IMG/VR virus record: IMGVR_UViG_3300037264_004923
Coordinates: 1-64,000 of that record
Direction: 5' to 3' (one strand)
DNA length: 64,000 nt
DNA from: a virus
Notes under the pieces: generated by a model
The model's database searches: none
Seen by the model: only the letters and a program-made list of their open reading frames with translations
What the model was told of the DNA's origin: nothing
Position numbers and translations under genes: made by a program
Shown here: piece after piece, positions 7,336 through 62,890 of the stretch
How the letters are laid out: every line of letters begins with the position of its first letter
Numbering within the stretch: position 1 is the first letter of the stretch

Positions 7336-8235
7336 ATGCGAACGATAGAGCAAGCAAAGACAGATGTCGCCGCTATCATAGGACGATGGCAAGTAGACGA
7401 TCTGCATGAGGGACATAGGACCCTCATCAACGAGGTCAAAGCTCAGCATCGAAAGGTGTTGATCTTCGTGGGTGTTCCGGATGTTCTTGGCTGTGTCGAG
7501 AATCCTCTGGACTACCCCACTCGGGCTGCGATGATTCTGCAGCATTACCCAGACGCTGTGGTTCTTCCTCTCCGTGATCAACACTCGGATGAGGACTGGA
7601 GCCGCCTCCTGGATTCTCTGATCCGAACCGCCGCTCCTATCGGAGAGGTAACCCTGTACGGTGGGCGAGATTCTTTCATTCGCCACTACACAGGAAAATT
7701 CAAGACGATCGAACTGGACGCCCTGCGCCACCCAAATGGTACCGAAATCCGAGAGGAGGTCGGTCGGGAGGTGCGGGCGTCTTCTGATTTTAGGGCAGGT
7801 GTAATCTACTCCTCCTTCAATCAGTACAAGCGCGTCCACATGGTCGTAGACATCGCGATCCTCCGTGGGGATAAAGTTCTGCTCATCCAGAAGCCTGGAG
7901 AGAGTACCGTGGGCTTCTGCGGTGGCTTCGTGGATGGTACCGACACCTGCTTGGAGTCTGCAGCTCGAAGGGAAGCCAAGGAAGAGACTGGTATCTTTCC
8001 GGAGACGGTCGAGTATCAAGGAACATTCATCATTCCGGATCGTCGAATGGGAAAGAACGATGTTATGATGTCTGCCTTCTTCATCGGAAAGACCATGACC
8101 AACACGATGATAAAGGTGTGTAAGGAGGAGCTTGCTGGGGCGGAGTGGTATCCGATCGCGGATCTACGCAAGCTCTCCTGGTTTCGAAATCACGTCCCAA
8201 TGTTCGAGGCCCTGTGCAAGAAGCTCGGGGTCTGA
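7336..8235 (+). CDS. nadM: NMN adenylyltransferase-Nudix hydrolase fusion (NadM-Nudix)
   Basis: A 299-residue bifunctional enzyme. The N-terminal nucleotidyltransferase domain has GRWQVDDLHEGH (HxGH at residues 24-27), which binds ATP and transfers AMP to NMN to make NAD+. The C-terminal Nudix domain (residues about 165-299) carries the box GGFVDG...REAKEETGI at 196-220; in this fusion family it usually cleans up ADP-ribose. The first acidic residue of the box is Asp where Glu is usual. It precedes nicotinamide phosphoribosyltransferase, so together they turn nicotinamide into NAD+ in two steps. Confidence 0.93.
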   Translation: MRTIEQAKTDVAAIIGRWQVDDLHEGHRTLINEVKAQHRKVLIFVGVPDVLGCVENPLDYPTRAAMILQHYPDAVVLPLRDQHSDEDWSRLLDSLIRTAAPIGEVTLYGGRDSFIRHYTGKFKTIELDALRHPNGTEIREEVGREVRASSDFRAGVIYSSFNQYKRVHMVVDIAILRGDKVLLIQKPGESTVGFCGGFVDGTDTCLESAARREAKEETGIFPETVEYQGTFIIPDRRMGKNDVMMSAFFIGKTMTNTMIKVCKEELAGAEWYPIADLRKLSWFRNHVPMFEALCKKLGV

Positions 8236-8239
8236 GAAA

Positions 8240-8294
8240 CGAGTGGTGATCCTACTCACGTCTGTCTTCGAACAGACGACGCACCTACGGGTGC
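8240..8294 (+). promoter_or_regulatory. Structured leader RNA motif upstream of NAMPT
   Basis: The leader has CGAGT (8240-8244), a 9-base loop, then ACTCACG (8254-8260). A TCTGT/ACAGA hairpin follows, then CGACG (8277-8281) and a GCACC-TACG-GGTGC hairpin (8281-8294) just before the ribosome site GAAAGGA. Order and sequence of the blocks match the leader at 7255, and CGGTGAA follows both. It lies between the two NAD genes, so it can regulate the second independently. Confidence 0.6.
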
Positions 8295-8310
8295 GGTGAA
8301 AGGAAATGCA

Positions 8311-9684
8311 ATGAACAAGCTACTTCTCACGGATTCGTACAAGCTCACACACTGGAAGCAGTACCCCCCAGGAACGGAAAAGGTTTACTCCTACTTCGAA
8401 TCACGGGGCGGACTCTTCGAAGAGACCGTGTTCTTCGGTCTCCAGTATTATCTCCAGAAGTACCTGGCAGGCAGCTTCGTCAGTCTGGATGACGTGTACT
8501 CCGCCGAGTACTTCTGCGAGCAGCACTTCGGACGTCCAGGCCTGTTCAATCGAGAGGGTTGGAACTATATCGCCTGGGAGCATGGCGGAAAACTTCCAGT
8601 TAGCATCAAGGCGGTTCCGGAAGGGACGGCGGTACCCACAGGCAATGTTCTGATGACCATCGAGAACACGGATCCCAAGGTTCCGTGGTTGACCAACTTT
8701 CTCGAGACCATGCTGGTTCAGGTATGGTATCCAATGACGGTTGCCACTTTGTCCCGCGAAATGAAAAAGCTCATTCGTGCCCATCTGGCGAAGAGCGGAG
8801 ATCCGTCTACAATCGACTTCAAGCTCCATGATTTCGGCTTTCGAGGAGTGTCCAGTGTGGAATCCGCCGGGCTTGGTGGGGCAGCGCACCTTGTAAATTT
8901 TCAGGGGACTGACACCCTAGCCGGGATCGTGCTTGCACAGGAGCACTATGGTCTGGGTTTGAAGATGGCAGGGTTCTCTATCCCGGCTTCGGAACACTCT
9001 ACGATTACTTCGTGGGGCAGAGAGCACGAGGCCGATGCATACGAGAATATGCTCACCCAGTTCCCGGATGGTTTGGTTGCCTGTGTCTCAGACTCCTACA
9101 ACATCTTCGACGCATGCTCCTCTCTCTGGGGAGATAAACTCAAAGAGAAGGTACTGGGTAGGAACGGTACCCTCGTGGTACGCCCCGACTCAGGCGATCC
9201 TCCAACAGTGGTGGGTCAGGTTTTGGATGCGCTCGGTGAAAAGTTTGGCTACACCACCAACGCCAAGGGGTTCAAGGTTCTTCCTCCCCAGGTTCGCGTG
9301 ATTCAAGGAGACGGGATCGACTATACGATGACCCGTCAGATTCTGGAAGTCATGAGCCTGAAGGGTTGGGGTGCCGACAACATCGCCTTCGGAATGGGCG
9401 GGGCCCTGCTGCAGAAGCTCGATCGCGACACTCAAAAGTGCGCCTTCAAGTGTGCAGAAGTGGTCGTAAATGGAGAGTCTCGCAAGGTCTCCAAGGACCC
9501 GGTAACCGACCCCGGCAAGCGTTCCAAAGCGGGACGCATGAAGCTGGTGAAAACCGAAAGAGGAGGCTTCACTACAGTAGATGCCGACCTTCAGGTTGAA
9601 GATCAGTTGGTTGAGGTTTTCCGCAACGGAGAAGTCCTGAAGACATATACCTTCGATGAAGTACGGGCACGCGCTGCCCTGTAG
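8311..9684 (+). CDS. nadV: Nicotinamide phosphoribosyltransferase
   Basis: A 457-residue NAMPT that makes NMN from nicotinamide and PRPP. Key regions are preserved: HDFGFRGVSSVESAG, IPASEHSTITSWG (catalytic His), VSDSYNIFDAC, VVRPDSGDP (Arg and Asp of the active site), VIQGDGID and AFGMGGALLQ. ATG 8311 is chosen because GAAAGGAAATGCA precedes it; the in-frame ATG at 8296 lies inside the leader hairpin. With the upstream NMNAT it forms the two-step nicotinamide salvage route, which phages are known to use to rebuild NAD+ after host defences destroy it. Confidence 0.97.
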   Translation: MNKLLLTDSYKLTHWKQYPPGTEKVYSYFESRGGLFEETVFFGLQYYLQKYLAGSFVSLDDVYSAEYFCEQHFGRPGLFNREGWNYIAWEHGGKLPVSIKAVPEGTAVPTGNVLMTIENTDPKVPWLTNFLETMLVQVWYPMTVATLSREMKKLIRAHLAKSGDPSTIDFKLHDFGFRGVSSVESAGLGGAAHLVNFQGTDTLAGIVLAQEHYGLGLKMAGFSIPASEHSTITSWGREHEADAYENMLTQFPDGLVACVSDSYNIFDACSSLWGDKLKEKVLGRNGTLVVRPDSGDPPTVVGQVLDALGEKFGYTTNAKGFKVLPPQVRVIQGDGIDYTMTRQILEVMSLKGWGADNIAFGMGGALLQKLDRDTQKCAFKCAEVVVNGESRKVSKDPVTDPGKRSKAGRMKLVKTERGGFTTVDADLQVEDQLVEVFRNGEVLKTYTFDEVRARAAL

Positions 9685-15943: not shown

Positions 15944-18900
15944 TTGCTGATTCCTAACTTCCCTTCGTTCCTTCAGGAAACTGCTAAGGAACACCTCCGT
16001 CGATTCAACAGCCGTATGAAGGCAGGCGGTCGCGCCCTAGACATGGCCGTCCAAGTTCGTCAGGACGAGGTGAACACCTTCCTGACTTTTCGCAGTGCCC
16101 GCCAAGGTTCTCTGAACGGTGAAACCGGAACGCTTGTCGTTCCTCGCCCTCGGAAGAACGAGTTTGGCAACTGGGTCATCGGCGATCGGAACGATCGTGC
16201 GCTGTGCCCCCTCATGATCGTGCTGAACGGACAGCCGCAACACGTGACTTACGAGGGGATGATCGGCACTCTCCTCTCTTCCAACGTCGAAGAGCTCTTC
16301 CCCGATCAGGGCAAGCGCAACTATTTCGACAAGATCCTGTGGGCCTTTTCCAAGGGGCGGGGTCGTCTCGCAGTTGGTATGTGTCAGCGGTTTCTGAACC
16401 AGACTATCTTCAACTCGCTTCCTCTCAGCGGCACCTCGATGCAGGATTGGGCGATGAATCATCGTCTGATGATCTTCGATCCGATCTTCGAGACTCTTCG
16501 CCCCGAAGAAAAGCTGGCGTATCAGAAGCGGAAGAATGAGCTGCTCTTCCCGTGGTCGTCCATCGGTCTGTCTGACGGTGCGGCGGCGGTGAAGAACTAC
16601 ATCCTCCAAGCGGACCTTCGCAAGTATACGGCATTCGGTAACCGGCATCACAATCCGATCCGCAATCTGTACTCCACGCTTGGCATGAAGGGAGAGGAGA
16701 AGCCTTTGGTCATCTCCAAGTCCATGTCGGGCTTGGAGGAGCAGGGGATCAGCCGCGGTGGTTGGAACTGGATGACCGTGTTCCTGGACCTGCCGTTGAA
16801 CTTCGAGGATCAGATCCTCGTTTCGCGCCGGCACGCTGGGAAGAAGGTGACGGACCATCGGAGCTTCATCGTGTTCGGCGAGGAATCGGCGGCTCTTGGG
16901 GATAACATCCTCAAGGATCGCGTCCTCGGCATGAACGAAGACGAGACACCTGTCGTGTTCGACATCGATTGTGACCACGCCAAGGTGATCGAGATCAAGG
17001 ACGGGGTTGTTCCGTTCGATGGCAATGATCAGCCGGTTCGTATCGTGACGCTCGAAGTGGTCTATTCCTTCAAGGAAGGATTCAAGATCACCAACCAGCA
17101 CGGCAATAAGGGCATCGTCATCTTGGAAGACCTAGGAACGGTTCACGATCCGAAGCGGGGTGAAATCCCGATCGACGTGATCGTTTCGGCTCGCTCGGTC
17201 CAGAAGCGCAAGAATTTCGGACAGATCTTGGAGGCCCTGGCCACTATGATCCACGGTACCGAAAAGCGCTTCATCGTTCCTGACGACATTGAGGTGTCCC
17301 AAGAACAGGTGGAGAAGTCTCTCGTGAGTGCGGGCTATTCCAAGGAGGGATCCTCGAAGGTATCCACTTCGTGGGGTGAGTTCGACACGCTCTGCGGCTG
17401 GATCCACTGGGGTGTCACCAAAACCCCCGAAGAACAGTTGTGGGAGAAGCGAGACACTTGGACGGAGAACCAGCGTGGACTTCGTACTCGAGGCAACAAG
17501 CTCTCGACCGTGGAACTCAAGGCGCTGACGACTCTGTTCGGCGCTGGTTCCAAGGTGGTGGGAGAGATCCTCTCCTACCAACAGGGACTCGGTGAAGTCC
17601 AGGAGTTGCTCCAGATCCTCGATAGCCTGCGCGGGAACGTTCGGGAAGAACTTCCTGTCGTGAACCCCGAGTCTTTCGTATACATCCCCACCGGTATGGG
17701 CACTTTCCATTCCATGGACGGTCTGGCTGGTACGCTGGCCGACGAGCATATGTATCCGCAGGGTTGCTACCTCCAACTACCCATAACTCTCCGCATGGAG
17801 GTTCCTCTGGAACGTTGGAAGAACCCCATCCGAGAAGGCATCGTGGGTGAAGAGAATGCGTACGGAAGCGAGGACTGCAAGGTGTACGAGGTCGATCGTC
17901 TCTTGATTCCGAGCTTCTCCCTTCGACAGCCGTGGCGACATCCGACTGGCAAGTTTGGCCTGTCCGAAGTGACCACGGTTCTGAACCAAGTCTTGGAGAA
18001 CATCGATCTGCTTCAGCGCGGGGAGATCAAGCCCGCCCAGCTTTCTGCCCTCATCTACAAGTATCTACACAACATTGGTCAGGGTCTCTCTACCAAGAGT
18101 GGAAAGATCAGCTCCTATCTCATGTCTGTCCGGTATCCGCACTCCTCGAAGGCGACCGCTGTTCTGGGTCGCAATCTGGAGGCGAACTGGGTGGAGATCC
18201 ACAAGGACATGGCAAAGGATCTGAGCGTCCAGACAGGAGACTACGTCTTGGTAGAGCGCTTTCCATGCCTCGGTTTCATGTCCGTACGCATCCAACGTGT
18301 GCGGGTGACCGATGATGTGGAGTGCAAGTACGTGATCCGGGTCAGCGGTAACTCGCTGGTCTCCATGAACTTGGACTTCGACGGAGACGTGATCTATGTG
18401 ATGAGCTTCCATACGGAAGCAGCCAAGGAAGAACTGCAGGCCAATTTCCACAATCCTCACCCGAGGATCAAGGAGGTTCTGGATACGATGAACGGGAAGA
18501 AGGTTCCCATCACGCGTTCCATGAACCTTCAGGAGATGGACCTGAAGAGCTTCGCACCGCTGACCCCCGAGGAACACGCAGATCTGAACGAGATCTCTCT
18601 TGCAGTCAAGCTGTATACGGGTCCTGTCATCGCTCTCTGCTACAACCTGATGCGTATTGCCGAAGGAAGCTTCAGCTACCAAGATCGTGAAGCCCACATC
18701 AATATCGAGGTCTTCCTCGATAAGGTCGGGAACTCGGTCTTCTCGCAGAAGCACGGTATTCGAAGCCTCAGGGAAGAGTGTACGGAGGCGGTGTGTCTTG
18801 CGGATCTGCAGGCAATGGTGAAGCTGGGATTCCCCGAGAAGGAATCCGCGAAGTTGTGCCAAGCCGTTCGAACTGCGGCTGCAAAGCTGGGAGTTCGGAA

Positions 18901-19129
18901 CGATGCAGAGCTAAAGGCTCACTACGAAAGGCACATCAAGGAAGGTCGCTCGAGCATCATCAATGCTATCGTTCGCCGTTTCCACAAGGCGTATTTTGCC
19001 ACCCGATCCAACCTGCATTCCTTGGATCTTCTGGAGCATCTCGATTCCAAGCCTAATGACTTGGCGTCGTTCTTGATCCAAGAGAGCCTTCGCAAGGTAC
19101 GGACTGCGCCCGCGGTTGCTGTAGCGTAA
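15944..19129 (+). CDS. Single-chain DNA-dependent RNA polymerase (two double-psi barrels)
   Basis: A 1,061-residue protein that holds both halves of a multisubunit-type RNA polymerase active site. The beta-type barrel shows HGNKG at residues 386-390 followed by GEIPIDVIVSA...KNFGQILEAL, matching the HGNKG...PVDI...GQ.LE signature. The beta'-type barrel shows VLVERFPCLGF and then NLDFDGDVIYVM, with the Mg-binding DFDGD at 811-815 and a following EAAKEEL helix. Known relatives are YonO of SPbeta and the polymerases of crAss-like phages, which work as one polypeptide. TTG start at 15944 with AAAGGTAAAACAAG upstream. A strong terminator follows. Confidence 0.93.
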   Translation: MLIPNFPSFLQETAKEHLRRFNSRMKAGGRALDMAVQVRQDEVNTFLTFRSARQGSLNGETGTLVVPRPRKNEFGNWVIGDRNDRALCPLMIVLNGQPQHVTYEGMIGTLLSSNVEELFPDQGKRNYFDKILWAFSKGRGRLAVGMCQRFLNQTIFNSLPLSGTSMQDWAMNHRLMIFDPIFETLRPEEKLAYQKRKNELLFPWSSIGLSDGAAAVKNYILQADLRKYTAFGNRHHNPIRNLYSTLGMKGEEKPLVISKSMSGLEEQGISRGGWNWMTVFLDLPLNFEDQILVSRRHAGKKVTDHRSFIVFGEESAALGDNILKDRVLGMNEDETPVVFDIDCDHAKVIEIKDGVVPFDGNDQPVRIVTLEVVYSFKEGFKITNQHGNKGIVILEDLGTVHDPKRGEIPIDVIVSARSVQKRKNFGQILEALATMIHGTEKRFIVPDDIEVSQEQVEKSLVSAGYSKEGSSKVSTSWGEFDTLCGWIHWGVTKTPEEQLWEKRDTWTENQRGLRTRGNKLSTVELKALTTLFGAGSKVVGEILSYQQGLGEVQELLQILDSLRGNVREELPVVNPESFVYIPTGMGTFHSMDGLAGTLADEHMYPQGCYLQLPITLRMEVPLERWKNPIREGIVGEENAYGSEDCKVYEVDRLLIPSFSLRQPWRHPTGKFGLSEVTTVLNQVLENIDLLQRGEIKPAQLSALIYKYLHNIGQGLSTKSGKISSYLMSVRYPHSSKATAVLGRNLEANWVEIHKDMAKDLSVQTGDYVLVERFPCLGFMSVRIQRVRVTDDVECKYVIRVSGNSLVSMNLDFDGDVIYVMSFHTEAAKEELQANFHNPHPRIKEVLDTMNGKKVPITRSMNLQEMDLKSFAPLTPEEHADLNEISLAVKLYTGPVIALCYNLMRIAEGSFSYQDREAHINIEVFLDKVGNSVFSQKHGIRSLREECTEAVCLADLQAMVKLGFPEKESAKLCQAVRTAAAKLGVRNDAELKAHYERHIKEGRSSIINAIVRRFHKAYFATRSNLHSLDLLEHLDSKPNDLASFLIQESLRKVRTAPAVAVA

Positions 19130-19134
19130 CAACA

Positions 19135-19175
19135 GGGGGGAGGGAGGGGGTACTCCTCTCCTTCCTCCTTTTTCT
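19135..19175 (+). terminator. Terminator after the RNA polymerase gene
   Basis: A G-rich 5' arm pairs over about 11 bp (with two G-U pairs) with the C/T-rich 3' arm ending CCTTCCTCC, followed by TTTTTCTTT. It begins 6 bases after the stop codon. Confidence 0.7.
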
Positions 19176-22624: not shown

Positions 22625-22637
22625 AAAGGAAATGTAC

Positions 22638-23738
22638 ATGGAGTTTGACATTGTGCCGTCCTTGATCGTAAAGCCCGGGGAGATCAGCCTTCCCCAAGAA
22701 TTACGACAGGATTTGGGCGTATTGATTGGTCAGTTTCTCCAGATCAAAAGCGGAGAAGTCGAGTTCATTCTGCAGATTATAGCTCCTCTCGGACCAGAGC
22801 AAGGGTCCGCGTGCATTTCGAGCTCCGAGTACCCTCAGCTCAAAAGTAAGGATGTCGAATACAAGATACTGGAGGTAACTCTGGGATGCGACCCAGAATT
22901 CTTTATCTTGTGGAACCACAAGAGAGTAGTAGCAGCCACCTACTTACCCTTCGTGGGACAGATCGGCTGTGATGGAGAGCTCGGAGAGCTTCGCCCGACC
23001 TACGGAAAGCACGAGAGCCAAGTGGTGGCAACCCTAGCGAGCCTCATCTCTCAGATTCCTAGTAAGATGAAGCGAGAGGCGTGGGCTCACGGATATCCAG
23101 AAAGAGGCGATCAATTCTCCTACGAGGCACATTCGTATCTGGGAGGAGTTGCCGCAGGGTTCCATGTTCATATGGGTATTCCGCCCGAAATTCTGAATAC
23201 CCGAAGAGATTTCAACCGGGCAGCAATGAATCACATTGTGCAATGCTTGGACTGGTACGTGTCCGTTCCACTGATTCCTCTGGAGGCAAATCATAGTCGC
23301 CGACTCGGGAAATCGAACTACGGAAGACCTGGGGATTACAGACCCTCCAACGTGACTTTGGAGTACAGAACTCCAGGTGCGTTCTATCTTCGGACGCCGA
23401 TTCTGGCAGCAGGACTGCTGGGAATGTCTCTTCTAGTGGTGGAGAATCTGGTAAGCCGGTTGAAGATAGCCAGCAAGAACTTCGTGAATCTACATAAGCT
23501 CACGGCTGCAGACTTCCATGAGATTATGCCCAAGCCGGAGCCCGACGAGATCAAGGGTGTCCTTCTAAATGAGAATACCAACCTGTCAAGATTCGCGATG
23601 GAGGGCATAAGGAAGCAGCTCGAGGCCTTACCTTCTTTCGGTAAGCACCGAGCGGCAGTAGAGGATTTCTTCAGCGTAGTGGATAAACAAGAGCAGCCAA
23701 GACCAAACCTACTGATGAACTGGAAGGAAGAGAAGTGA
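22638..23738 (+). CDS. phiEco32-type COOH-NH2 ligase, copy 1
   Basis: A 366-residue ligase of the glutamine-synthetase-like fold that joins a carboxyl to an amine using ATP. Diagnostic stretch: LGCDPEFFILW ... GQIGCDGELGELRP, then GGVAAGFHVHMGIP, NYGRPGDYRP and LEYRTPGAFYLRTP, matching the phage phiEco32-like type-2 family. Start ATG 22638 is preferred over 22632 because AAAAAGGA is 7 bases upstream. It opens the amide-bond cluster and overlaps the next gene by 4 bases. Confidence 0.88.
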   Translation: MEFDIVPSLIVKPGEISLPQELRQDLGVLIGQFLQIKSGEVEFILQIIAPLGPEQGSACISSSEYPQLKSKDVEYKILEVTLGCDPEFFILWNHKRVVAATYLPFVGQIGCDGELGELRPTYGKHESQVVATLASLISQIPSKMKREAWAHGYPERGDQFSYEAHSYLGGVAAGFHVHMGIPPEILNTRRDFNRAAMNHIVQCLDWYVSVPLIPLEANHSRRLGKSNYGRPGDYRPSNVTLEYRTPGAFYLRTPILAAGLLGMSLLVVENLVSRLKIASKNFVNLHKLTAADFHEIMPKPEPDEIKGVLLNENTNLSRFAMEGIRKQLEALPSFGKHRAAVEDFFSVVDKQEQPRPNLLMNWKEEK

Positions 23739-25441
23739 CGATCAAAGCAAAGCGTCGCGGATTCGTCAAGTTTCAGCAGAAGTCACAGCGGCCGCCTCTG
23801 TCCCGCGAGAAGTTCGAGTACTGGATGGATATGCTGCCGAAGATCCTGAAGGTCGGTACCGAGTTCGAGATCAATCTCCCGGATACCAGCCAAATACTGC
23901 AGGTGAAGGAAGAGACCCCCTGTCTACACGCCACTGTACCGGCAACCGCAGAGTGTGCCAAGGATTGCTCTAACCTCGAGGAATGCCTTGTCGAGCGTCA
24001 CCCCGCCTTCTGTCTCACGAAGAGCAGCGGGAAGTTTCTGGACAAGGATTTCCAGTGCCCAGCCAAGAGTGAGTCGGATACGGAATCTTGCCGCGCCTGC
24101 CCGGCGTGGATGCTGAACTGCATGGGCATGCGTTGCGCGATGTATTCTCCGGCGTGCTCTGTGTGCCCCTCCTTCCTAAGGAAGGGAGAAGTCATCGAGG
24201 CCGGCAACATTCGCAGAGATGCTGAAACCATTCGGCGTGAAGTAAAGGACATCCTTCAGCCGACCGGGTTCGTAGGAGAGACAGGCAGCCACGGGGCCCT
24301 CGAAGTCAAGAAGGACAACTCGCTGATCAACAACGGAGGTATAGAAGTCCCCACCGTTGGTCGACGGGTGCATTGGAACAGCTTCTACAAGATGTGCCAA
24401 GACATCCTTACGCCGATCGTCGAGAGAGGTGGCTTCGTGAATGAGCGGTGTGGTCAGCACTATCACGTTCTCGCTGGGTACTTCGACGAGCAGTCGGGTA
24501 TACGCGGAAGATACGTGTCCGAGATGGAAGAGCCTCTGCCCGAGATCATCCTCGCGAATCTGCATCAACTGCATCGTCGGTATCAGCTGGCAATGTATTG
24601 GATCATGAGCGCCGGCACTGTCCCCGAACACCTGACGCGCTGGGCCAAGTTCCGACAGTCAATCTACAAGTTCAGTGCCCTGAGAAATCCGATGTCTCGA
24701 GTGCAGGCAGAACTAGCTGAGCACATTGTGTCCATGAACAACGGTCAGAAAGGCAAGTACGCCTCCGTGGCGTATCACTTCTGCAAGTTCAATCCGGAAG
24801 GAAACGTCACTACCTTCCATATCGAGAACCGGATCGCTGATGGAACCCTGTCGGCTGCAGTGGCCAGTGCTTGGGGGATGCTTTGCTACGCCCTCGTCCT
24901 GAAGGCCGTTCGTCTATCCCAGTATGGTACGATGGAAGCCGGAGACGTAGAGTACAACGAGAAGGTAAAGCTCATTCAGCCTCATCTCATAGATGGTGGG
25001 CAACGGGACTGGGGTTCGGACAGGAACGCCAACACCGCGGGGCTCGCCCCATTCATTCCGTGGCTGCGGGAGAACACAGTGGAGCTCATCAACTTCCTAA
25101 AGCCTGAGCTCCATGGTCTTGGTCCGGCGTACGAAATTCTGATGTCTCTCGCGAACCGTCCGTGTTCAGCAAGGTTGATCAACGGAGACAGCTGGCAGAA
25201 GATCGAGGCCGACCTCATGAAAGAAGCGGGATTCAAGAGAAACCGTGGCTCGGAAGATGACATTCGAGAAGTTGTGGATCTGGCCGGCATTGTGGATTGC
25301 GAAAGCGTTGCTGCTTGGATCGAGGAAGTTTCGGCACATCTGGGACAGTCTCCCGCCGTAGTAACTGATGTTGTTTCCCAAATGACCCGATCGGGTCGGT
25401 ATCGATGGAGCCAACCCATCGGTGCTCTGATCACTACATAG
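23735..25441 (+). CDS. Amidoligase with Cys-rich insert
   Basis: A 568-residue protein, GTG start overlapping the previous TGA. It has GTEFEINLP, SLINNGGIEVPT and CGQHYHVLAG, the core of the amidoligase (GS-like) family. Between the first strand and the core (residues about 60-150) lies an insert with more than a dozen cysteines in CxxC-like pairs (for example CRACPAWMLNC, CSVCPSF), likely binding metal. It forms amide bonds between an unknown carboxyl and amine. The core is distinct from the two phiEco32-type ligases around it. Confidence 0.85.
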   Translation: MTIKAKRRGFVKFQQKSQRPPLSREKFEYWMDMLPKILKVGTEFEINLPDTSQILQVKEETPCLHATVPATAECAKDCSNLEECLVERHPAFCLTKSSGKFLDKDFQCPAKSESDTESCRACPAWMLNCMGMRCAMYSPACSVCPSFLRKGEVIEAGNIRRDAETIRREVKDILQPTGFVGETGSHGALEVKKDNSLINNGGIEVPTVGRRVHWNSFYKMCQDILTPIVERGGFVNERCGQHYHVLAGYFDEQSGIRGRYVSEMEEPLPEIILANLHQLHRRYQLAMYWIMSAGTVPEHLTRWAKFRQSIYKFSALRNPMSRVQAELAEHIVSMNNGQKGKYASVAYHFCKFNPEGNVTTFHIENRIADGTLSAAVASAWGMLCYALVLKAVRLSQYGTMEAGDVEYNEKVKLIQPHLIDGGQRDWGSDRNANTAGLAPFIPWLRENTVELINFLKPELHGLGPAYEILMSLANRPCSARLINGDSWQKIEADLMKEAGFKRNRGSEDDIREVVDLAGIVDCESVAAWIEEVSAHLGQSPAVVTDVVSQMTRSGRYRWSQPIGALITT

Positions 25442-25451
25442 GAGAAAAGAG

Positions 25452-26300
25452 ATGTGCGGTATTGCCACCATCTCGATCGGTCGCCGGAACCGCGATCGAA
25501 TTCCTTACGACAAGCTTCGTGCCCTCGTGCGAGAGCTCATGGTCGAGCTTCAACCCCGAGGCAACGACGCGTCAGGAATCGCCATCATAAACGCTCTCGG
25601 AACGACGCCAAGTAGCGTCTACAAGAAGGCGTTGAGACCGGATCGGTTCGTGGTTCGGCCTGCGTTCGAAGACTCCCTGAAGAAGATCGGACCAGAGACC
25701 AACTTCGTTCTTTTGCACGCCAGAGCGGCCACCGTCAGCGGCACAGAGAACAACTACAACAACCACCCCATTCTGATCCCGAACTTCGTAGGGATCCACA
25801 ACGGGACCCTGTACAACGAGGACGGGTTGTTCAAGGAGTTCGAGGAATACTTTCCTCGTGAAGGACAAGTGGATTCGGAAATCATCTTCCGGTTGTTCTC
25901 CCACTTCGTGAGCAAGGGTGTGGGTTCCCAGAAGGCCCTGAAAGAAACCGCGGAGTTGCTCAACGGAGCTTTCACAGGGGCGGTGGTGGATTGGAGAAGG
26001 CCACACGAAATGGTCATGTTCAAGCATGACCGGGCGTTGTGCCTAGTCCGCATTCCATACTACGACGTGGTCATCGCAGTCTCGGAATCGAAGTTCTATC
26101 AGCGCGCAGCGACACGACTGCGCATGAAGGTCAAGGCCTCCCATCAGTACGTGTTGGACGGCGTTGGCCTGATTATGAACTTGGAATCCGAGAAGCCGCT
26201 AGTTGACAACCTAGTTGATTTCGACATTCCAGTGAAGAGGTTCACCAGCATGGGGAGTCAGTATGGCAGCTACTATAGCCCACGGTCCTACGTCGGATAA
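25452..26300 (+). CDS. Class II glutamine amidotransferase, copy 1
   Basis: A 282-residue Ntn-type glutaminase. The N-terminal Met-Cys-Gly-Ile exposes the Cys2 nucleophile after Met removal. Other active-site blocks are RGNDASG, HARAATVSG, NNHP, HNGTLYN and VDSE. It releases ammonia (or acts on gamma-glutamyl substrates). No synthetase domain is attached, so it probably works with the adjacent ligases. AGGAGAAAAGAG is the ribosome site. Confidence 0.92.
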   Translation: MCGIATISIGRRNRDRIPYDKLRALVRELMVELQPRGNDASGIAIINALGTTPSSVYKKALRPDRFVVRPAFEDSLKKIGPETNFVLLHARAATVSGTENNYNNHPILIPNFVGIHNGTLYNEDGLFKEFEEYFPREGQVDSEIIFRLFSHFVSKGVGSQKALKETAELLNGAFTGAVVDWRRPHEMVMFKHDRALCLVRIPYYDVVIAVSESKFYQRAATRLRMKVKASHQYVLDGVGLIMNLESEKPLVDNLVDFDIPVKRFTSMGSQYGSYYSPRSYVG

Positions 26301-26312
26301 GGAACAGCAAGC

Positions 26313-28043
26313 ATGTGTGGTATTGTAGGCATCATTCAGTACGAATCTCGGGTCGATCGAGTCGTTCGCGCGAAGGCCCTGAGGATTCTGTTCTCGGACA
26401 TCATGCTGCTCACTGAGCCTCGAGGAGATGACGCAACCGGCATCTACCAAGTTCACGCCGACGGCGATTGGATGATGGCCAAGAAGGGCCAGAAAGTCTC
26501 CCAGTTTCTGTACGAAGTTGAGGGTAAAGATGACCCGATCACGTACAGCGACTTTATGAGGACGTGGGACCAGCATGAAATGGAAATGACCGCCCTAGTA
26601 GGTCATTGCCGCAAGGCCACTGTGGGAAGCCGTGGACAGAACAACGACGACAATCATCCCTTCGCTGTGCAACTAGACGAGCGGAACGCCATCCTAGGTG
26701 TGCACAACGGTACGCTGACCAACCACGAGACCATCTTCAAGAAGCTGACCTGTCAGCTTCCTCGACAAGGCGGTGTCGACAGCGAGTCCATCTTCCATCT
26801 GATGTACGAGGAGACGGAGAAGGGTACGAAGCGCATGACCGGGGACATTCTCCGCAGAATGGGAGAAAGAATTGACGGAGCGTACGCCGTGGTCGCGGTC
26901 AATACACGCTTCCCGAATCAGGTATCCGTGTTTCGAGAGGGTCGACCGACAGAAATGATCATGGTTGCCCCCCTCAACATTGTCATTCTGGCTTCGATGA
27001 AGAAGTTCGTCGAAGAGGCTCTGGCGAAGTACGAGTTCTTCCGGCGAATAATGGATCCCAGTCTGCCGGCTCTCACAACAAACGATCGGATGTTGCCGGA
27101 GCGCGACTATCGAATCTTCGACACCACGCTGCCCTTCCCCACTGGCAAATTGGAATGGGCCGATTTCGATGCCATCTCCGAGAAGGGAGAAATGAGGAGA
27201 CTTACCAATTCTATTCTGGAGGATTGGAAGCCCGAGACGAGCTCACCTTCCAGCTTATATTCAGGCGGCCATCACGGCGGATACAGCTCTCATCAAGGCT
27301 TCCACAGGGCTACGGGGACTCCGCCAGCTCCTGCAGCCGCGACTGTACCCGCCGAGACAACCACCCCGGTATCGCCGGCGGCTCTATCTGGGGTGCGTGC
27401 ATTGCCGGCTTGTATCAAGAAGCCTGAGGAAATCACCAAGGTTGATGCAGAGATCGTCTTTGGAGAGCCCACCGAGGAGGAAGCGACCAAGGCCTTCCAT
27501 CAAGTAGTATCCCTAGGACTCTGCGTGAGCTACGATTCCACGGGAGAGGTGGCGAAGGCACTGGATAAAACTGAGTCCGAGATCAACAAGACGCCGATCT
27601 CGGAGATTGCAAACGAACTGTCGAAACTGCACTTCAACTTTGGCTATGCCATGGGAGCCATCGATTCCAAGGCGTCCAACGAAGAGGTACGAAGACTCGG
27701 CCGCCAGCAGCTTCAGAAGATGGAGAGGTTGGCCGAAAAGCAGAAAAAGGCAGAGAAGCACATCTGGGAGTTGAAAAGTCTCATTCAAATCGGAATCGCG
27801 CTAGCCGAATGTGGTTTTCCGATCAGCGAGCGGAATGCCAAGACGGTGCTTCAGTCCTTCAAAGCTCTTCCGGCTGGACGTGCTGGGGATGTGGAGAAGA
27901 TGCTTCACAGTGTATTGGAAGATAAGGCTGCACAGAAGACAGTGCGAGACTTGGTTTCCAAGCTGAAGTCTGCCGCGCAGCGACAAAAGCTGAAGAAGAA
28001 AGAGCGGGCCTCCAAGGCCGATCAGTCCTCCACGTCCGAGTAG
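26313..28043 (+). CDS. Class II glutamine amidotransferase, copy 2, with long C-terminal extension
   Basis: A 576-residue protein. The first 260 residues are a second GAT-II domain: MCGIVGII, RGDDATG, GHCRKATVGS, DDNHPF, HNGTLTNHE, VDSES. Residues about 300-350 are a Ser/His/Pro/Ala-rich linker, and the rest is helical with a lysine-rich coiled coil (RLAEKQKKAEKHIWEL) and a basic tail. The extension has no recognised domain and may dock the glutaminase to a ligase or substrate. Starts 12 bases after copy 1. Confidence 0.9.
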   Translation: MCGIVGIIQYESRVDRVVRAKALRILFSDIMLLTEPRGDDATGIYQVHADGDWMMAKKGQKVSQFLYEVEGKDDPITYSDFMRTWDQHEMEMTALVGHCRKATVGSRGQNNDDNHPFAVQLDERNAILGVHNGTLTNHETIFKKLTCQLPRQGGVDSESIFHLMYEETEKGTKRMTGDILRRMGERIDGAYAVVAVNTRFPNQVSVFREGRPTEMIMVAPLNIVILASMKKFVEEALAKYEFFRRIMDPSLPALTTNDRMLPERDYRIFDTTLPFPTGKLEWADFDAISEKGEMRRLTNSILEDWKPETSSPSSLYSGGHHGGYSSHQGFHRATGTPPAPAAATVPAETTTPVSPAALSGVRALPACIKKPEEITKVDAEIVFGEPTEEEATKAFHQVVSLGLCVSYDSTGEVAKALDKTESEINKTPISEIANELSKLHFNFGYAMGAIDSKASNEEVRRLGRQQLQKMERLAEKQKKAEKHIWELKSLIQIGIALAECGFPISERNAKTVLQSFKALPAGRAGDVEKMLHSVLEDKAAQKTVRDLVSKLKSAAQRQKLKKKERASKADQSSTSE

Positions 28044-28064
28044 TGCTTCACAATCGAGGAAAAC

Positions 28065-29330
28065 ATGGGAAGAAAGATAGAGCTCCGACTCTTAATCTCG
28101 CCCTCGATGTCAGAGAAGAAGGAAGAGGGGATTATTCGGTTCCCTCTTCGAGCTCGCTCTCACTTTGGCTTTTCCGACAATTGCGTATCTATTGGCAAAG
28201 GAGGCGCAGAGCTCTACCTGTCTGTCAAACAGGCCTATAAGCATGACGTTCAGCGCATTCAGAAAATGCTCGCAACCAAAGAATTACCGCTTGAGGATGT
28301 TATCAGAGTAGGCTTCGTCACCCGGTCGGTGCATAGAAAGCTGAACCAGAAAGAAGGAAGTGCTTGGATCACCAATGGGATGGGAAACATAACCATTGGG
28401 TGTGACCCCGAATTCGGATTGATCGATCCGACCACAAAACTCTTGGTGCGAGGCGACAAGGTTCTTCCAGGTTCCATCCAGCACAAGTTCGGAGCCGACG
28501 GTCCTGGCGTGGAGATCCGCCCAGATCCTCGCAGAGACCACATCGGCGTAGTGGAGAACATCCGCAAATCGCTGGAGAATCCTCCAGAGGGTGCCGATAA
28601 ATACAAGTGGATCGGAGGCGCCACTTATCACGATAAGAACCGATGCTATTGGTTTGGTGGTCACGTACACTTGGGTCGCCCGGACAGCATCGATGCAGAG
28701 ATAGCCGGAGCATGCTACGAGAAGATTGCGGTTGTGCTCGATCATCTGGTGGCTTTCCCGATGGTTAGCTTCGATACCCCAGAACCGAATAAGCGAAGGA
28801 ACGGATGCCTGCATCAGTACGGGAAAGCTGGAGATATTCGAGCCAACTATCCCGAAGGAAATAGATTCGAGTACCGAGTACTCAGCGGTCTTTGGCTGGT
28901 GCACCCTGCCCTCGCACGTATCGTTCTAGGAGTTTCCAAGTGCGTGGCGGAGACCGCGTACGAAAGAATCATACACAACAACAAGGATCTGGAATACATT
29001 CAGGCCCCGGGCTCCAAGAAGGGCCTCCTCCGAAGCTTCGGTCTGAAGGGCTTCAAGGAGAAGGCCTCCATTATCAACAACGCGAATCCAGAACGCCTCA
29101 CAGAGGAGTCCATCTCTGAGTGGGAGCATCAACTGATGAGTTTGGATCGTGCCGATGAGTATAAGGAAGAGCTAACTGCTCTTGTGGAAATCGTCAAGGC
29201 TTCGCCAGAGAATGTCGTTCCTCAGTTGGATCTCGACATTCGAAACGCGTGGCAGAACAACAAACCGCTTCTTCCAGAAGCTTCCGCTTCCCTACGCAAA
29301 GCGTTGGACGCGGTGGAGAACAAGAAATGA
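28065..29330 (+). CDS. phiEco32-type COOH-NH2 ligase, copy 2
   Basis: A 421-residue relative of the 22638 ligase: ITIGCDPEFGLID, FGADGPGVEIRPDP, WFGGHVHLGRP, YGKAGDIRANYP and FEYRVLSGLWL align block by block. ATP-dependent carboxyl-amine ligation is expected; the substrate is unknown. The extended C-terminal tail is helical. GAGGAAAAC precedes ATG 28065. It overlaps the ATP-grasp-like gene by 4 bases (ATGA). Confidence 0.88.
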   Translation: MGRKIELRLLISPSMSEKKEEGIIRFPLRARSHFGFSDNCVSIGKGGAELYLSVKQAYKHDVQRIQKMLATKELPLEDVIRVGFVTRSVHRKLNQKEGSAWITNGMGNITIGCDPEFGLIDPTTKLLVRGDKVLPGSIQHKFGADGPGVEIRPDPRRDHIGVVENIRKSLENPPEGADKYKWIGGATYHDKNRCYWFGGHVHLGRPDSIDAEIAGACYEKIAVVLDHLVAFPMVSFDTPEPNKRRNGCLHQYGKAGDIRANYPEGNRFEYRVLSGLWLVHPALARIVLGVSKCVAETAYERIIHNNKDLEYIQAPGSKKGLLRSFGLKGFKEKASIINNANPERLTEESISEWEHQLMSLDRADEYKEELTALVEIVKASPENVVPQLDLDIRNAWQNNKPLLPEASASLRKALDAVENKK

Positions 29331-30430
29331 ACGGATATGTCTGGTACTCCTTTGGCTCGGACACGACTGGTCCGAAGTTGGCAGAGGCTCTAGGTTTCAA
29401 GTCGGGCAAGAAGACCCCGGATGTGTCTCGATTCGAGGTGGTTCTCGGTTGGGGTTGCAAACTAGGCGAGAAGTACGACGCCGAGCTCTTCAAGCAGCGG
29501 ATCCAGTCCGGAGCCCTGCGGGTGCTGAACACCCCGGAGACCGTCGAGGCAAACCGCGACAAGCTCGCGATGCTGTTGCGCCTCCAAGCGAAGAAGGTAT
29601 CGACTCCCGGTCTCGTCAGCTTGGACAAGAAGGACCCGGCGATGTGCGTGATGTCTCTGGATCTCGCCCTGAAGAACGGCGTCCTAGCGTACCCCATCGT
29701 GGGCATGTCGAGCATTCACAAGGGCGAGCCGTTCTTCTGCCACACGCGTGAGGACGTGGTCATGGCCGTGGTAGAGATCGTGAAGCAGACTGGTGCCTTC
29801 TACTTTCGCTCTCTCTGTGCGGGAACCGAGTACCGGATCCACGTGCTGCGGGATCAGGCGATCCTCGCCCAGATCAAGGCACCCGCCAAGAATCCTCTCG
29901 AGGCTACCGTGAAGTCGATGCTCGATGATCTGAAACATGGCTTCGAGAAGGAGGAGAAAATCGGCTTCCCAGTACCCGATGCGCGGGCCCAAGAGTGGAT
30001 CGTCAAGATGTTCGCGCCGGAGATGCTACGTGGTCCCTCACAACTACTCCGCAGCACCAATCGGGGATGGTCGCTCGAAGACTGCCCTCTTTCCACCGTT
30101 CCGGCCTTCGTTGTCACGGAGGCAATCAAGGCGATCGACGCCTCTGGTCTCGATATGGGGGTGGTCAGCCTCGTGATCGACGAGAAGGTAGCGAGGGTGA
30201 CCAACATTACCACGTCGCCGGCCCTCTCTGATAAGCACTTGGCGGCCTACGTCTCGGCGATCAAGGATTTCGCGGCGGCCGTGAAGAAGCCTGCCAAGGC
30301 AAAGACAGCGTCGGCCCCGTCCGAGATCGACCAAGCTCCGCAAGAGCTCATAACGCGCCTGAACGCCGCGATTCGCGGACTCAGCCGCAAGAAGGCGGAG
30401 GCTGTGCTCAGCGTGCTCGGCGAGGAGTAG
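29327..30430 (+). CDS. ATP-grasp-like protein with altered metal site
   Basis: A 367-residue protein related to the ATP-grasp gene at 38029 (YRIHVLRD / YRVHTFISG, and a closing P-x-x-S-D block). Where the 38029 protein has Glu254 and Asn256 for Mg binding (LEVNSTP), this one has Asn293 and Thr295 (TNITTSP), so catalysis may be weakened or changed. A C-terminal Ala/Lys/Pro-rich linker leads to a final helical stretch (AIRGLSRKKAEAVLSVL). ATG 29327 overlaps the previous stop. Confidence 0.72.
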   Translation: MNGYVWYSFGSDTTGPKLAEALGFKSGKKTPDVSRFEVVLGWGCKLGEKYDAELFKQRIQSGALRVLNTPETVEANRDKLAMLLRLQAKKVSTPGLVSLDKKDPAMCVMSLDLALKNGVLAYPIVGMSSIHKGEPFFCHTREDVVMAVVEIVKQTGAFYFRSLCAGTEYRIHVLRDQAILAQIKAPAKNPLEATVKSMLDDLKHGFEKEEKIGFPVPDARAQEWIVKMFAPEMLRGPSQLLRSTNRGWSLEDCPLSTVPAFVVTEAIKAIDASGLDMGVVSLVIDEKVARVTNITTSPALSDKHLAAYVSAIKDFAAAVKKPAKAKTASAPSEIDQAPQELITRLNAAIRGLSRKKAEAVLSVLGEE

Positions 30431-33092: not shown

Positions 33093-33714
33093 ACCAACTA
33101 TGACCAGAAAATGCAGGCGCGGCAAGCACCTAATGACGGAGGAGAATACGTACCACTACGTTTATCCTTCTGGAAGAGAGGTGTTTCAATGCAGAGCTTG
33201 CCGCATGACTAGATCTGACGAGTGGTCAAAGAACAACCCAGAGAAGAAGAAGAAGAGCGACAAAAACTGGGCGGGTAATAACCCCCTAAAGAAACAGGTG
33301 AATCGGGTGCGCTGGGCAAAAGACAACCCAGGCAAGACGAAGACCAGTAGGTATGCTTGGGATCTACGCAACCCAGAAAAGAGAGCGGGGGCTAGATCTT
33401 CTTGGGAAGTCCGTAACCCGGAATACTCACGAATCAAGCAACATCGGCGTCGAGCTCGAAAGCGAAACCAGATGGGTGCGTGGCCGATGCCAGAGGTTGA
33501 GGCTATCAGGTTACTGTGGGATGAGCAATCAGGCAAGTGTGCTTACTGTAGCGAGACTTTGGGTTCTGCTTATCATGTGGACCACAAAAACCCGTTAGCA
33601 CGGGGCGGACTACACGGGTACGAAAACATCTGCCTCGCTTGCCCAAGATGTAACTGGGAAAAAGGACTTATGACAGATCAGGAATACCAAAGCAGCAGGA
33701 GTACCTCGAGATGA
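33082..33714 (+). CDS. HNH endonuclease with N-terminal NP repeats
   Basis: A 210-residue probable homing nuclease. The N-terminus has CRRGKH...CRACR, then about five repeats of a short W/N-P-E/G-K unit (KNNPEKKK, GNNPLKK, KDNPGKTK, LRNPEKR, VRNPEYS) that probably bind DNA. The C-terminal HNH domain has CAYCSETL, HVDHKNPLARGG and CLACPRCNWEKG. It sits between ruvB and the sigma factor and overlaps both by a few bases. Confidence 0.87.
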   Translation: MNSKPTMTRKCRRGKHLMTEENTYHYVYPSGREVFQCRACRMTRSDEWSKNNPEKKKKSDKNWAGNNPLKKQVNRVRWAKDNPGKTKTSRYAWDLRNPEKRAGARSSWEVRNPEYSRIKQHRRRARKRNQMGAWPMPEVEAIRLLWDEQSGKCAYCSETLGSAYHVDHKNPLARGGLHGYENICLACPRCNWEKGLMTDQEYQSSRSTSR

Positions 33715-34541
33715 GTAGCAGCGATATGTCCTACCTGAAGGAGCACCTGAAAGGGCCCATCCTGAAGATCACGGACCCCAGAGAGCACAGCACAGAGGAC
33801 ATTCTAAAGTCCTACTTCAGAGAGATACTCGTCATCGCCCGGAAGTATACTCGCCCATCCGTGGAATTCGAGGACTTGGTGGTCGAGGGGCTCATGGGTC
33901 TTTTGGATGCCATCAAGCGCTGGGACCCGATAAAGGCCGGTACCAATCTTCGCTCCTTCCACAACTTGGCCATCGTTCGCATCAAGAGCAACATGTTCGA
34001 CTATTTCCTAGCGAACAACACACTCTATACCGTCCCGAACTACATGGGGCGCGCCATGTCTTTGATCGAACAGATCAAGAATCTGGTGGCTGGATACGAG
34101 TATCCAGGGAATGCACAAGAAGTTCTTCTGAACTACGAGCACGAAGGATTCGAGAAGCACGCTCCAGCCGATTACGTACGCAAGGTGCGGACTCTGAAGG
34201 AGAAGTTCCTCAATCTCGCGAAGGGATTCGACAAGTCTTACGAGGAGATGATTCGAGGCGTCCTCAAGATCCAAGAAAACATCGAGAGCTTCGAGCAGGG
34301 AGAGGAGGAATTCATGTCCTCTCCTGAAGAAATCGCAGGTAAGAGGGAGTATCTGGATAAGATCTTGAGCGTTCTGAAACCTAATGCTCGGGACGTGATC
34401 ATCTCCCTACTCGAGGGGGAGACTCTGGAGAAAGCGGGGGAAAAGCAGGGCTTCACCCGCGAACGGGCACGGCAGATCCAGAAAGAAACTCTGGAGTTCC
34501 TGCAAAAGACCCGGATGTACCGAGATGCCCTCGATGAATAG
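33711..34541 (+). CDS. Phage sigma factor (sigma-70 family)
   Basis: A 276-residue sigma-like protein. Region 2 spans about residues 40-110, with DLVVEGLMGLLDAIKRWDP (core binding) and RSFHNLAIVRIKSNMFDYF. Region 4 is near the C-terminus (LKPNARDVIISLLEGETLEK then GFTRERARQIQKE, a helix-turn-helix for the -35 box). A long middle segment replaces region 3. It could direct host polymerase to late promoters; it is not known whether it works with the phage polymerase at 15944. The start codon overlaps the HNH stop (ATGA), with AGGAG 10 bases before. Confidence 0.87.
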   Translation: MSSSDMSYLKEHLKGPILKITDPREHSTEDILKSYFREILVIARKYTRPSVEFEDLVVEGLMGLLDAIKRWDPIKAGTNLRSFHNLAIVRIKSNMFDYFLANNTLYTVPNYMGRAMSLIEQIKNLVAGYEYPGNAQEVLLNYEHEGFEKHAPADYVRKVRTLKEKFLNLAKGFDKSYEEMIRGVLKIQENIESFEQGEEEFMSSPEEIAGKREYLDKILSVLKPNARDVIISLLEGETLEKAGEKQGFTRERARQIQKETLEFLQKTRMYRDALDE

Positions 34542-62465: not shown

Positions 62466-62890
62466 TCCTGGCGTCGCCTTTCTACACGGGCAACGTTGGG
62501 ATCTTCAAACTTGTAGGGGCAATTCTTACCCTCGCGTTCATAAACGAGAGTGTTATCTGCGCCGTAGATACAGGCGGTAAGGTTCTGTGGTTCGCGGGCG
62601 GTAGGATCTGGGTTCCTGATTGCTTCTGACATCTGACTTTCACAAGCAAAAGGGAAGCAGGGGTCCGTATCTTCGTCGTCATCCTCTAACGAGTAGAATT
62701 CTATGTTTGGACCAGTGTCATAGATGGGATAGAAGAAGTTGTTGCTGTTCCAACCAGACCATCCTCGATTCCAACTCCTAACTTCTCGCGATCTAACCGA
62801 ATCAATACGCGTAGCGGCTCGTTGCGCCCAAGAAAAATCGGCGGGAATAACAAACAAAGCTAAAAGTAAAACCCACTTAAGCGTAGACAC
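62432..62890 (-). CDS. Secreted or periplasmic protein, 152 aa
   Basis: A clear signal peptide (MSTLKWVLLLALFVIPADFSWA) with a likely cut after the first 22-23 residues. The mature part is acidic (EDDDEDTDP), with four cysteines (CFPFAC, TACIYG, NCPY) suited to disulfides, and a basic C-terminal helix. No known family. A role at the cell envelope, such as lysis or exclusion, is possible. Confidence 0.7.
   Translation of the reverse strand: MSTLKWVLLLALFVIPADFSWAQRAATRIDSVRSREVRSWNRGWSGWNSNNFFYPIYDTGPNIEFYSLEDDDEDTDPCFPFACESQMSEAIRNPDPTAREPQNLTACIYGADNTLVYEREGKNCPYKFEDPNVARVERRRQEWLKNKGNLGR

Follow-up and report, generated by a model that had tools for sequence, protein, structure and literature searches.

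A single-chain two-barrel RNA polymerase in a fragment of a ~300-kb phage lineage, and a sister polymerase fused to the tape-measure protein in its relatives

The window analysed here, a stretch of 64,000 nucleotides that makes up bases 1–64000 of a 101,763-bp IMG/VR virus record (genome G000), contains a gene for an RNA polymerase (RNAP) that carries both catalytic barrels on a single chain of 1,061 residues. In near-complete genomes related to this record, a second polymerase, recognisable as a sister of the first, is welded to the tape-measure protein. By analogy with the Thermus phage P23-45, the free enzyme is probably the non-virion RNAP of a two-polymerase programme, possibly sigma-directed, in which the tape-fused paralog would start transcription. 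With a one-piece RNAP of its own and a second, tape-welded copy in its near-complete relatives, the virus is likely to direct a large share of the expression of its genes itself.

The 101,763-bp record is a fragment of a ~300-kb phage lineage without an isolate. From ~7 kb of the window up to the record's end, most genes have collinear counterparts in at least one of two viral contigs, G001 (~296 kb; 295,848 bp) and G002 (~298 kb; 297,725 bp). The gene for the free enzyme and its borders are as follows.

15944..19129, + strand: gene for the single-chain two-barrel RNA polymerase, 1,061 aa, the proposed non-virion RNAP (ORF, Pfam PF00623 and PF00562, orthologs)
15944..15946, + strand: TTG start codon (upstream sequences read by eye)
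19131..19173, + strand: terminator-like G-rich hairpin directly 3' of the stop codon (hairpin search; same place in L002 and L003)

The frame is open over all 1,061 residues. Its TTG start, proposed in an earlier note on this DNA, is credible because a TTG stands at the equivalent place in the window and its three closest relatives (L002, L003 and L049), preceded at 7–9 nt by an AGGAG-like site in the relatives, where the window has AAAGG, a weaker site, all read by eye; such a start may keep translation of the polymerase low. The same note gave the gene a terminator of its own. A G-rich hairpin of 17–20 pairs, the longest found in the record, does directly follow the stop codon, but in L002 and L003 the hairpin at this place differs in sequence and has no T-run, so that a terminator is plausible and no more than that.

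Both barrels are recognised by Pfam above the gathering score, in the order beta-like and then beta'-like: RNA_pol_Rpb2_6 (PF00562, E=1e-5) at residues 371–473 (nt 17045–17362) and RNA_pol_Rpb1_2 (PF00623, E=2e-6) at residues 752–832 (nt 18194–18439). Since these two matches are accompanied by orthologs over the full length of the protein in G001 and G002, at 73% and 67% identity respectively, the two-barrel assignment is not due to chance.

16691..17428, + strand: beta-like part, residues 250–495, the first barrel, with NFEDQILVS (286–294), K381, HGNKG (386–390), R422 and GQILE (PF00562, alignment to 26 fused viral RNAPs, mostly high pLDDT in model 2)
17099..17113, + strand: HGNKG motif; its K389, with K381 eight residues upstream, forms the pair of active-site lysines (lysines in all 37 rows)
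18086..18448, + strand: beta'-like second barrel, residues 715–835, with LSTKSGKISSYLMSVRYPHSSKAT, VLVERFPCL (R772) and NLDFDGD (PF00623, motif-by-motif alignment to fused RNAPs)
18374..18388, + strand: DFDGD metal-binding triad, residues 811–815 (identical in all covered rows)

Conservation was read from an alignment of 37 rows, comprising the free-enzyme family, a split enzyme, five tape-fused copies and 26 fused viral RNAPs; separate beta' fragments, which MAFFT placed on the beta barrel, were left out. K381, K389 and R422 are invariant in 37/37 rows, tape-fused paralogs included, while R772, P774, N809, D811, D813 and D815 are identical in every covered row and the E288–D289 pair, from the NFEDxILVS of cellular beta, is present in nearly all. 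The spacing of 8 between K381 and K389 matches that of the E. coli active-site lysines K1065 and K1073. Against the barrel regions of fused viral RNAPs, six motif blocks fall in the right order: FED; GxK...HGNKG; R-x-N-x-GQ; K-x-G...L...R...S; LL.R.P.L; and N.DFDGD. The beta'-like barrel thus has its DxDxD triad and the other barrel its two lysines, and together with the Pfam matches these invariant residues bear out the earlier reading of two catalytic barrels on one chain, with HGNKG (386–390), PIDV...GQILE (409–430) and DFDGD (811–815) at the positions first reported. Matches to PDB sequences are mainly RpoB chains and, judged by sequence, the enzyme comes nearer to cellular-type polymerases and to fused viral enzymes of ~2,100 aa than to crAss-like ones.

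A first AlphaFold model, built on three close homologs, was uninformative (pLDDT 33). The second, from a 37-row alignment of span fragments, reached a pLDDT of 65 and a pTM of 0.55; it is confident in most of residues 250–495 and 730–830, and poor in 868–943 and after 1000. Residues 868–943, which follow the second barrel, are where we would expect the bridge helix and trigger loop. A structure search with model 2 returned 965 PDB matches at E <= 0.001, the best 50 of which are RNAP chains, almost all beta-type, with a best match at E 1.5e-13. Structure prediction had been proposed as a check on whether the two barrels meet at one active site; the model is moderate overall and mostly confident in the barrel regions, and its listed PDB matches are RNAP chains, with global TM-scores of only ~0.2. 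The two double-psi barrels, beta-like and beta'-like, would jointly form one active site, in which the DFDGD triad would hold Mg2+ and K381, K389, R422 and R772 would contact NTP and RNA.

17966..18085, + strand: predicted helical hairpin, helices 675–691 and 697–714, just before the second barrel (secondary structure of model 2)

This hairpin (~673–714), which both models predict, may be the counterpart of the cellular clamp helices. In cellular RNAP, the clamp helices occupy this position and bind sigma region 2. In a viral fold library, the model's best match was BFVD A0A8S5SD80_1 (E 2.9e-15), annotated in Siphoviridae sp. ctnpt50 as a ‘minor tail protein’; A0A172Q0S6, 798 aa long and uncharacterised, from the Acinetobacter jumbo phage ME3, was also among the best. 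RNAP appears in neither name, and the first of these matches hints at further tail-fused polymerases.

Cellular multisubunit enzymes have Rpb1_1 and Rpb1_5 modules and keep beta and beta' as distinct chains, whereas here there is one ORF. The beta-barrel model has a single match in each of G000, G001, G002 and G008 (141,526 bp). The beta'-barrel model likewise has a single match in G000 and in G002; G001 has two, of which the weak one lies inside the tape-measure ORF. These four genomes gave no match to Rpb1_1 or Rpb1_5, although Rpb1_5 was detected in all 14 controls and in Vibrio phage D69, and besides the tape fusion no other RNAP subunit or piece was found in them. With single barrel matches and no Rpb1_1 or Rpb1_5, it is improbable that the 1,061-aa enzyme is just one piece of an RNAP divided over several chains, very divergent partners aside. 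A protein without Rpb1_5 and other cellular modules might need partners, and could on that account replace or modify subunits of the host RNA polymerase with no transcription of its own; yet both catalytic halves lie on one chain, and YonO and gp64 of P23-45 work alone (PMC5467207, PMC10770324), so that a role of this kind is highly improbable.

The family of the free enzyme extends to G008, with a full-length homolog of 38% identity, and a related polymerase in G009 (231,647 bp) is split into adjacent ORFs of 561 and 508 aa (L084 280–3463, at ~105 kb of G009), with DSDGD replacing DFDGD. A scan of genome contigs for the close family gave a sole match, on a 3.2-kb contig (L049, WJJK01000174.1) that carries the N-terminal half of the RNAP at 72% and the upstream neighbour. 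This contig was binned with a Candidatus Altiarchaeales MAG, which is either a hint of the host or a binning error. Among 50,697 phage records, just five gave matches, all confined to the beta barrel and covering 5–9% of the query. A human-faecal ‘Bacteriophage sp.’ match (L006) was considered as a relative and rejected, being an ordinary rpoB/rpoC pair.

The second polymerase was found in G001 and G002, in one ORF each of 4,651 and 4,562 residues.

250760-264712 of G001: tape-fused RNAP (locus L047)
160368-174053 of G002: tape-fused RNAP (locus L046)

The middle of both ORFs is a TP901-type tape-measure domain (PF10145; TIGR01760), and their N-terminal third holds the polymerase, with a two-lysine GxK...GxK block and MNLDFDGD. 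These genomes therefore have the paralogous, tape-fused RNAP that characterises the P23-45 type. A DNA scan for MNLDFDGD located the fusion in further contigs (loci L051, L053, L050 and L058; at L050 the ORF leaves the locus before any tape domain), and in G001, G002, G004, G005 and G007 the TIGR01760 match (E 6e-39 to 7e-51) shares one open frame of ~4,560–4,650 aa with the RNAP. The copies in G007 and G002 have identical scores and the same sample number, so G002 and G007 possibly represent a single phage. When two of the ~4,600-residue proteins (L046 and L053) were scanned whole against NCBIfam there was no match, yet fragments of them match TIGR01760 at 1e-35 to 1e-41, for which reason empty scans of very long proteins were distrusted. 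A tblastn search of the 50,697 phage records with the tape-fused copies gave no match. No Pfam tail-sheath match was found, which fits weakly with a long non-contractile tail. In the C-terminal ~200 residues of the tape ORF of G001 (4439–4647 of L047), SMC-type coiled-coil models match below cut-off. A 736-aa gene adjoining the tape gene, with a GNKG-like string, was tried as a beta half and rejected, having no Pfam match and no RNAP block.

A profile of the free enzymes picks up the tape-fused ones and vice versa, and in the deeper sets the two families align with a probability of 99.3% (E=1.2e-20) over 919 columns; the free enzymes and the fused viral RNAPs align with a probability of 97% over 888 columns. 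In a tree of the beta-barrel segment, five free enzymes group with support of 99/95, five tape-fused copies with 100/99 and both jointly with 99/90 (98/90 in a smaller set). A topology that puts the free enzymes with the fused/beta viral RNAPs in place of the tape copies was rejected (p-AU 0.0005), and one that joins the tape copies to the split L084 enzyme was not (p-AU 0.08); long branches weaken the tree and leave the position of the split enzyme unsure. On these comparisons the free and tape-fused polymerases can be recognised as sisters along almost all of their length.

All the catalytic residues checked are kept in the tape-fused copies, HGNKG having drifted around its lysine, and on this ground the copies are argued to be active. 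In G001 and G002, ~125–130 kb separate the free RNAP gene from the tape gene downstream of it, and at that distance the tape locus of the window's own phage would fall beyond the end of the record; this phage presumably carries a tape-fused copy as well. The same two results weigh against the converse arrangement, in which the free enzyme itself is packaged in the virion and the tape-fused copy survives as an inactive relic for the sake of tail assembly. Some single-chain phage RNAPs are indeed virion proteins, and in phage Arash the fused RNAP gene adjoins the portal gene, but a relic is hard to square with the retention of every checked catalytic residue, and a packaged enzyme with a gene so far from the tape gene, which makes this arrangement quite improbable.

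The earlier note had placed the RNAP gene mid-genome and apart from structural genes, as its distance from the tape gene in the relatives affirms, and had spoken of an early-type gene order. The gene does lie in a + strand block with genes for SSB, a helicase, RuvB, NAD salvage and a tRNA nucleotidyltransferase, and its expression may be early. Membership of a replication and recombination block (SSB, helicase, RuvB), and a two-barrel fold that is common to QDE-1 and archaeal PolD (PMC10770324), would also suit a polymerase whose main job is other than mRNA synthesis, whether RNA-primed or RNA-templated (QDE-1-like) or as a replication primase. Its closest sequence matches, however, are the beta and beta' subunits of cellular DNA-dependent RNAPs, and a sigma gene is present in each of the four genomes, and we consider another main job improbable.

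Elsewhere in the window, a NUDIX-domain gene is followed by one for nicotinamide phosphoribosyltransferase (NAMPT) at 7336–9684, a NAD-salvage pair that is possibly directed against NAD-depleting defence. A cluster at 22632–30430, kept in G001 and G002, contains two phiEco32-like COOH-NH2 ligases (PF14395) and two class-II glutamine amidotransferases, and looks like a peptide- or DNA-modification pathway.

The sigma gene of the window is the following.

33711..34541, + strand: phage sigma-70 family factor, 276 aa, regions 2 and 4 (PF04542 E=5e-8, PF04545 E=1e-5, TIGR02937 E=9e-19)

A gene with sigma-70 region 2 lies 17–18 kb downstream of the RNAP gene, on the same strand, in 4/4 genomes (G000, G001, G002 and G008), and a sigma gene is also found in phages D69 and Arash. 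Its product is a candidate specificity partner of the free RNAP, and could instead serve the host RNAP. A search for a repeated phage-specific promoter motif gave none, only words from tRNA and ribosome sites and a few TTGACA–TATAAT sites. One of these, TTGACA-17-TATAATT, stands just upstream of the ruvB and sigma genes of G001 (139394–139482), so that host-type promoters are present as well; it closely resembles a promoter at 62554–62629 of the same genome.

How the two enzymes would share the infection is suggested by P23-45, where the tape-fused enzyme transcribes the pre-early genes, including that of the free enzyme, with the early genes and some of the middle ones left to the latter (PMC10770324). 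By the same logic, the tape-fused polymerase would here enter with the DNA at infection and transcribe the first genes, among them that of the free enzyme, which would take over for the phage genes that come later, perhaps with the phage sigma-70 as its guide. The activity, timing and virion status of each enzyme, as well as the use of sigma, we infer. A fuller version, a three-part programme in which two RNAPs from one duplicated gene act as tape-borne starter and free successor and sigma-70 chooses the promoters, is put forward tentatively, as the less likely outcome. If it were true, use of a sigma factor would, to our knowledge, have been demonstrated for the first time in a single-chain two-barrel RNAP.

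Single-chain two-barrel RNAPs, tape-fused RNAPs and jumbo phages with two RNAPs are each already known separately. What appears to be new is the lineage, the occurrence of a tape-fused paralog in phages of ~300 kb and the association with sigma, and no paper describing this family was found in the literature searched, which covered few subscription journals. An enzyme of ~1,060 residues on one chain, with cellular-type motifs, lends itself well to finding out which parts of cellular RNAP can be dispensed with, and also whether sigma works without the rest of it. Whether the virion and non-virion RNAPs of jumbo phages arose by duplication or by separate capture is given as unknown in a 2026 review (PMC13282480), and this lineage makes the question testable, its two enzymes being sisters over nearly their full length.

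Considering known systems, a profile of the free-enzyme family found no match in the genomes of phi14:2, P23-45, phiKZ, AR9 and ME3. The likeness to crAss-like enzymes drawn in the earlier note was not upheld, with no match at E<=10 in the phi14:2 genome, beyond the presence of both barrels on one chain in phi14:2 gp66, which is described as a virion enzyme. Fused beta–beta' polymerases are common in IMG/VR, where 40 viral-contig ORFs carry HGNKG and DxDGD on one chain (L060, L067, L071, L094, L122, L138 and L170 are among the fused ORFs). These enzymes and those of the D69/Arash type have both barrels on one chain and the same motif order as the free enzyme; the complete fused ORFs are mostly ~2,100 aa, about twice as long, with a barrel spacing of ~600 residues against 426 here, D69 has its Rpb1_5 part on a separate 610-aa ORF, and both types stand apart from the free-enzyme family in the tree.

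YonO of the Bacillus prophage SPbeta is likewise a phage single-chain two-barrel DNA-dependent RNAP with an aspartate triad (PMC5467207), but by description it matches multisubunit RNAPs in only a few residues (PMC5467207), whereas here Pfam Rpb1 and Rpb2 models match above cut-off. The jumbo phages phiKZ and AR9 resemble the programme proposed here in having virion and non-virion two-barrel RNAPs, and differ in that four or more chains make up their core (PMC7598289, PMC7824862), where here each enzyme is one chain, the free one a single ORF, and a sigma gene is present; no sigma factor was found in the phiKZ/AR9-type group (PMC7824862; PMC13282480).

The closest layout is that of P23-45, for which a free non-virion RNAP, gp64, and a tape-measure-fused virion RNAP, gp96, have been shown experimentally, and for which RNAP duplication in a phage ancestor has been inferred (PMC10770324). 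Both lineages have a free single-chain two-barrel RNAP and a paralog in the N-terminal part of the tape-measure protein (~5,000 residues in P23-45). They differ in the size of the free enzyme (616 aa for gp64, 1,061 here) and of the genome (84 kb, ~300 kb here), and in the cellular HGNKG and NFEDxILVS motifs that are kept here and the sigma gene that is present. Profile comparison of the tape-fused copies with gp96 gave no significant match, and the best pair between the two systems was the free family with gp96 (probability 45%). Tape-measure-fused polymerases, known experimentally from a Thermus phage, are thereby extended to ~300-kb phages and to at least five contigs.
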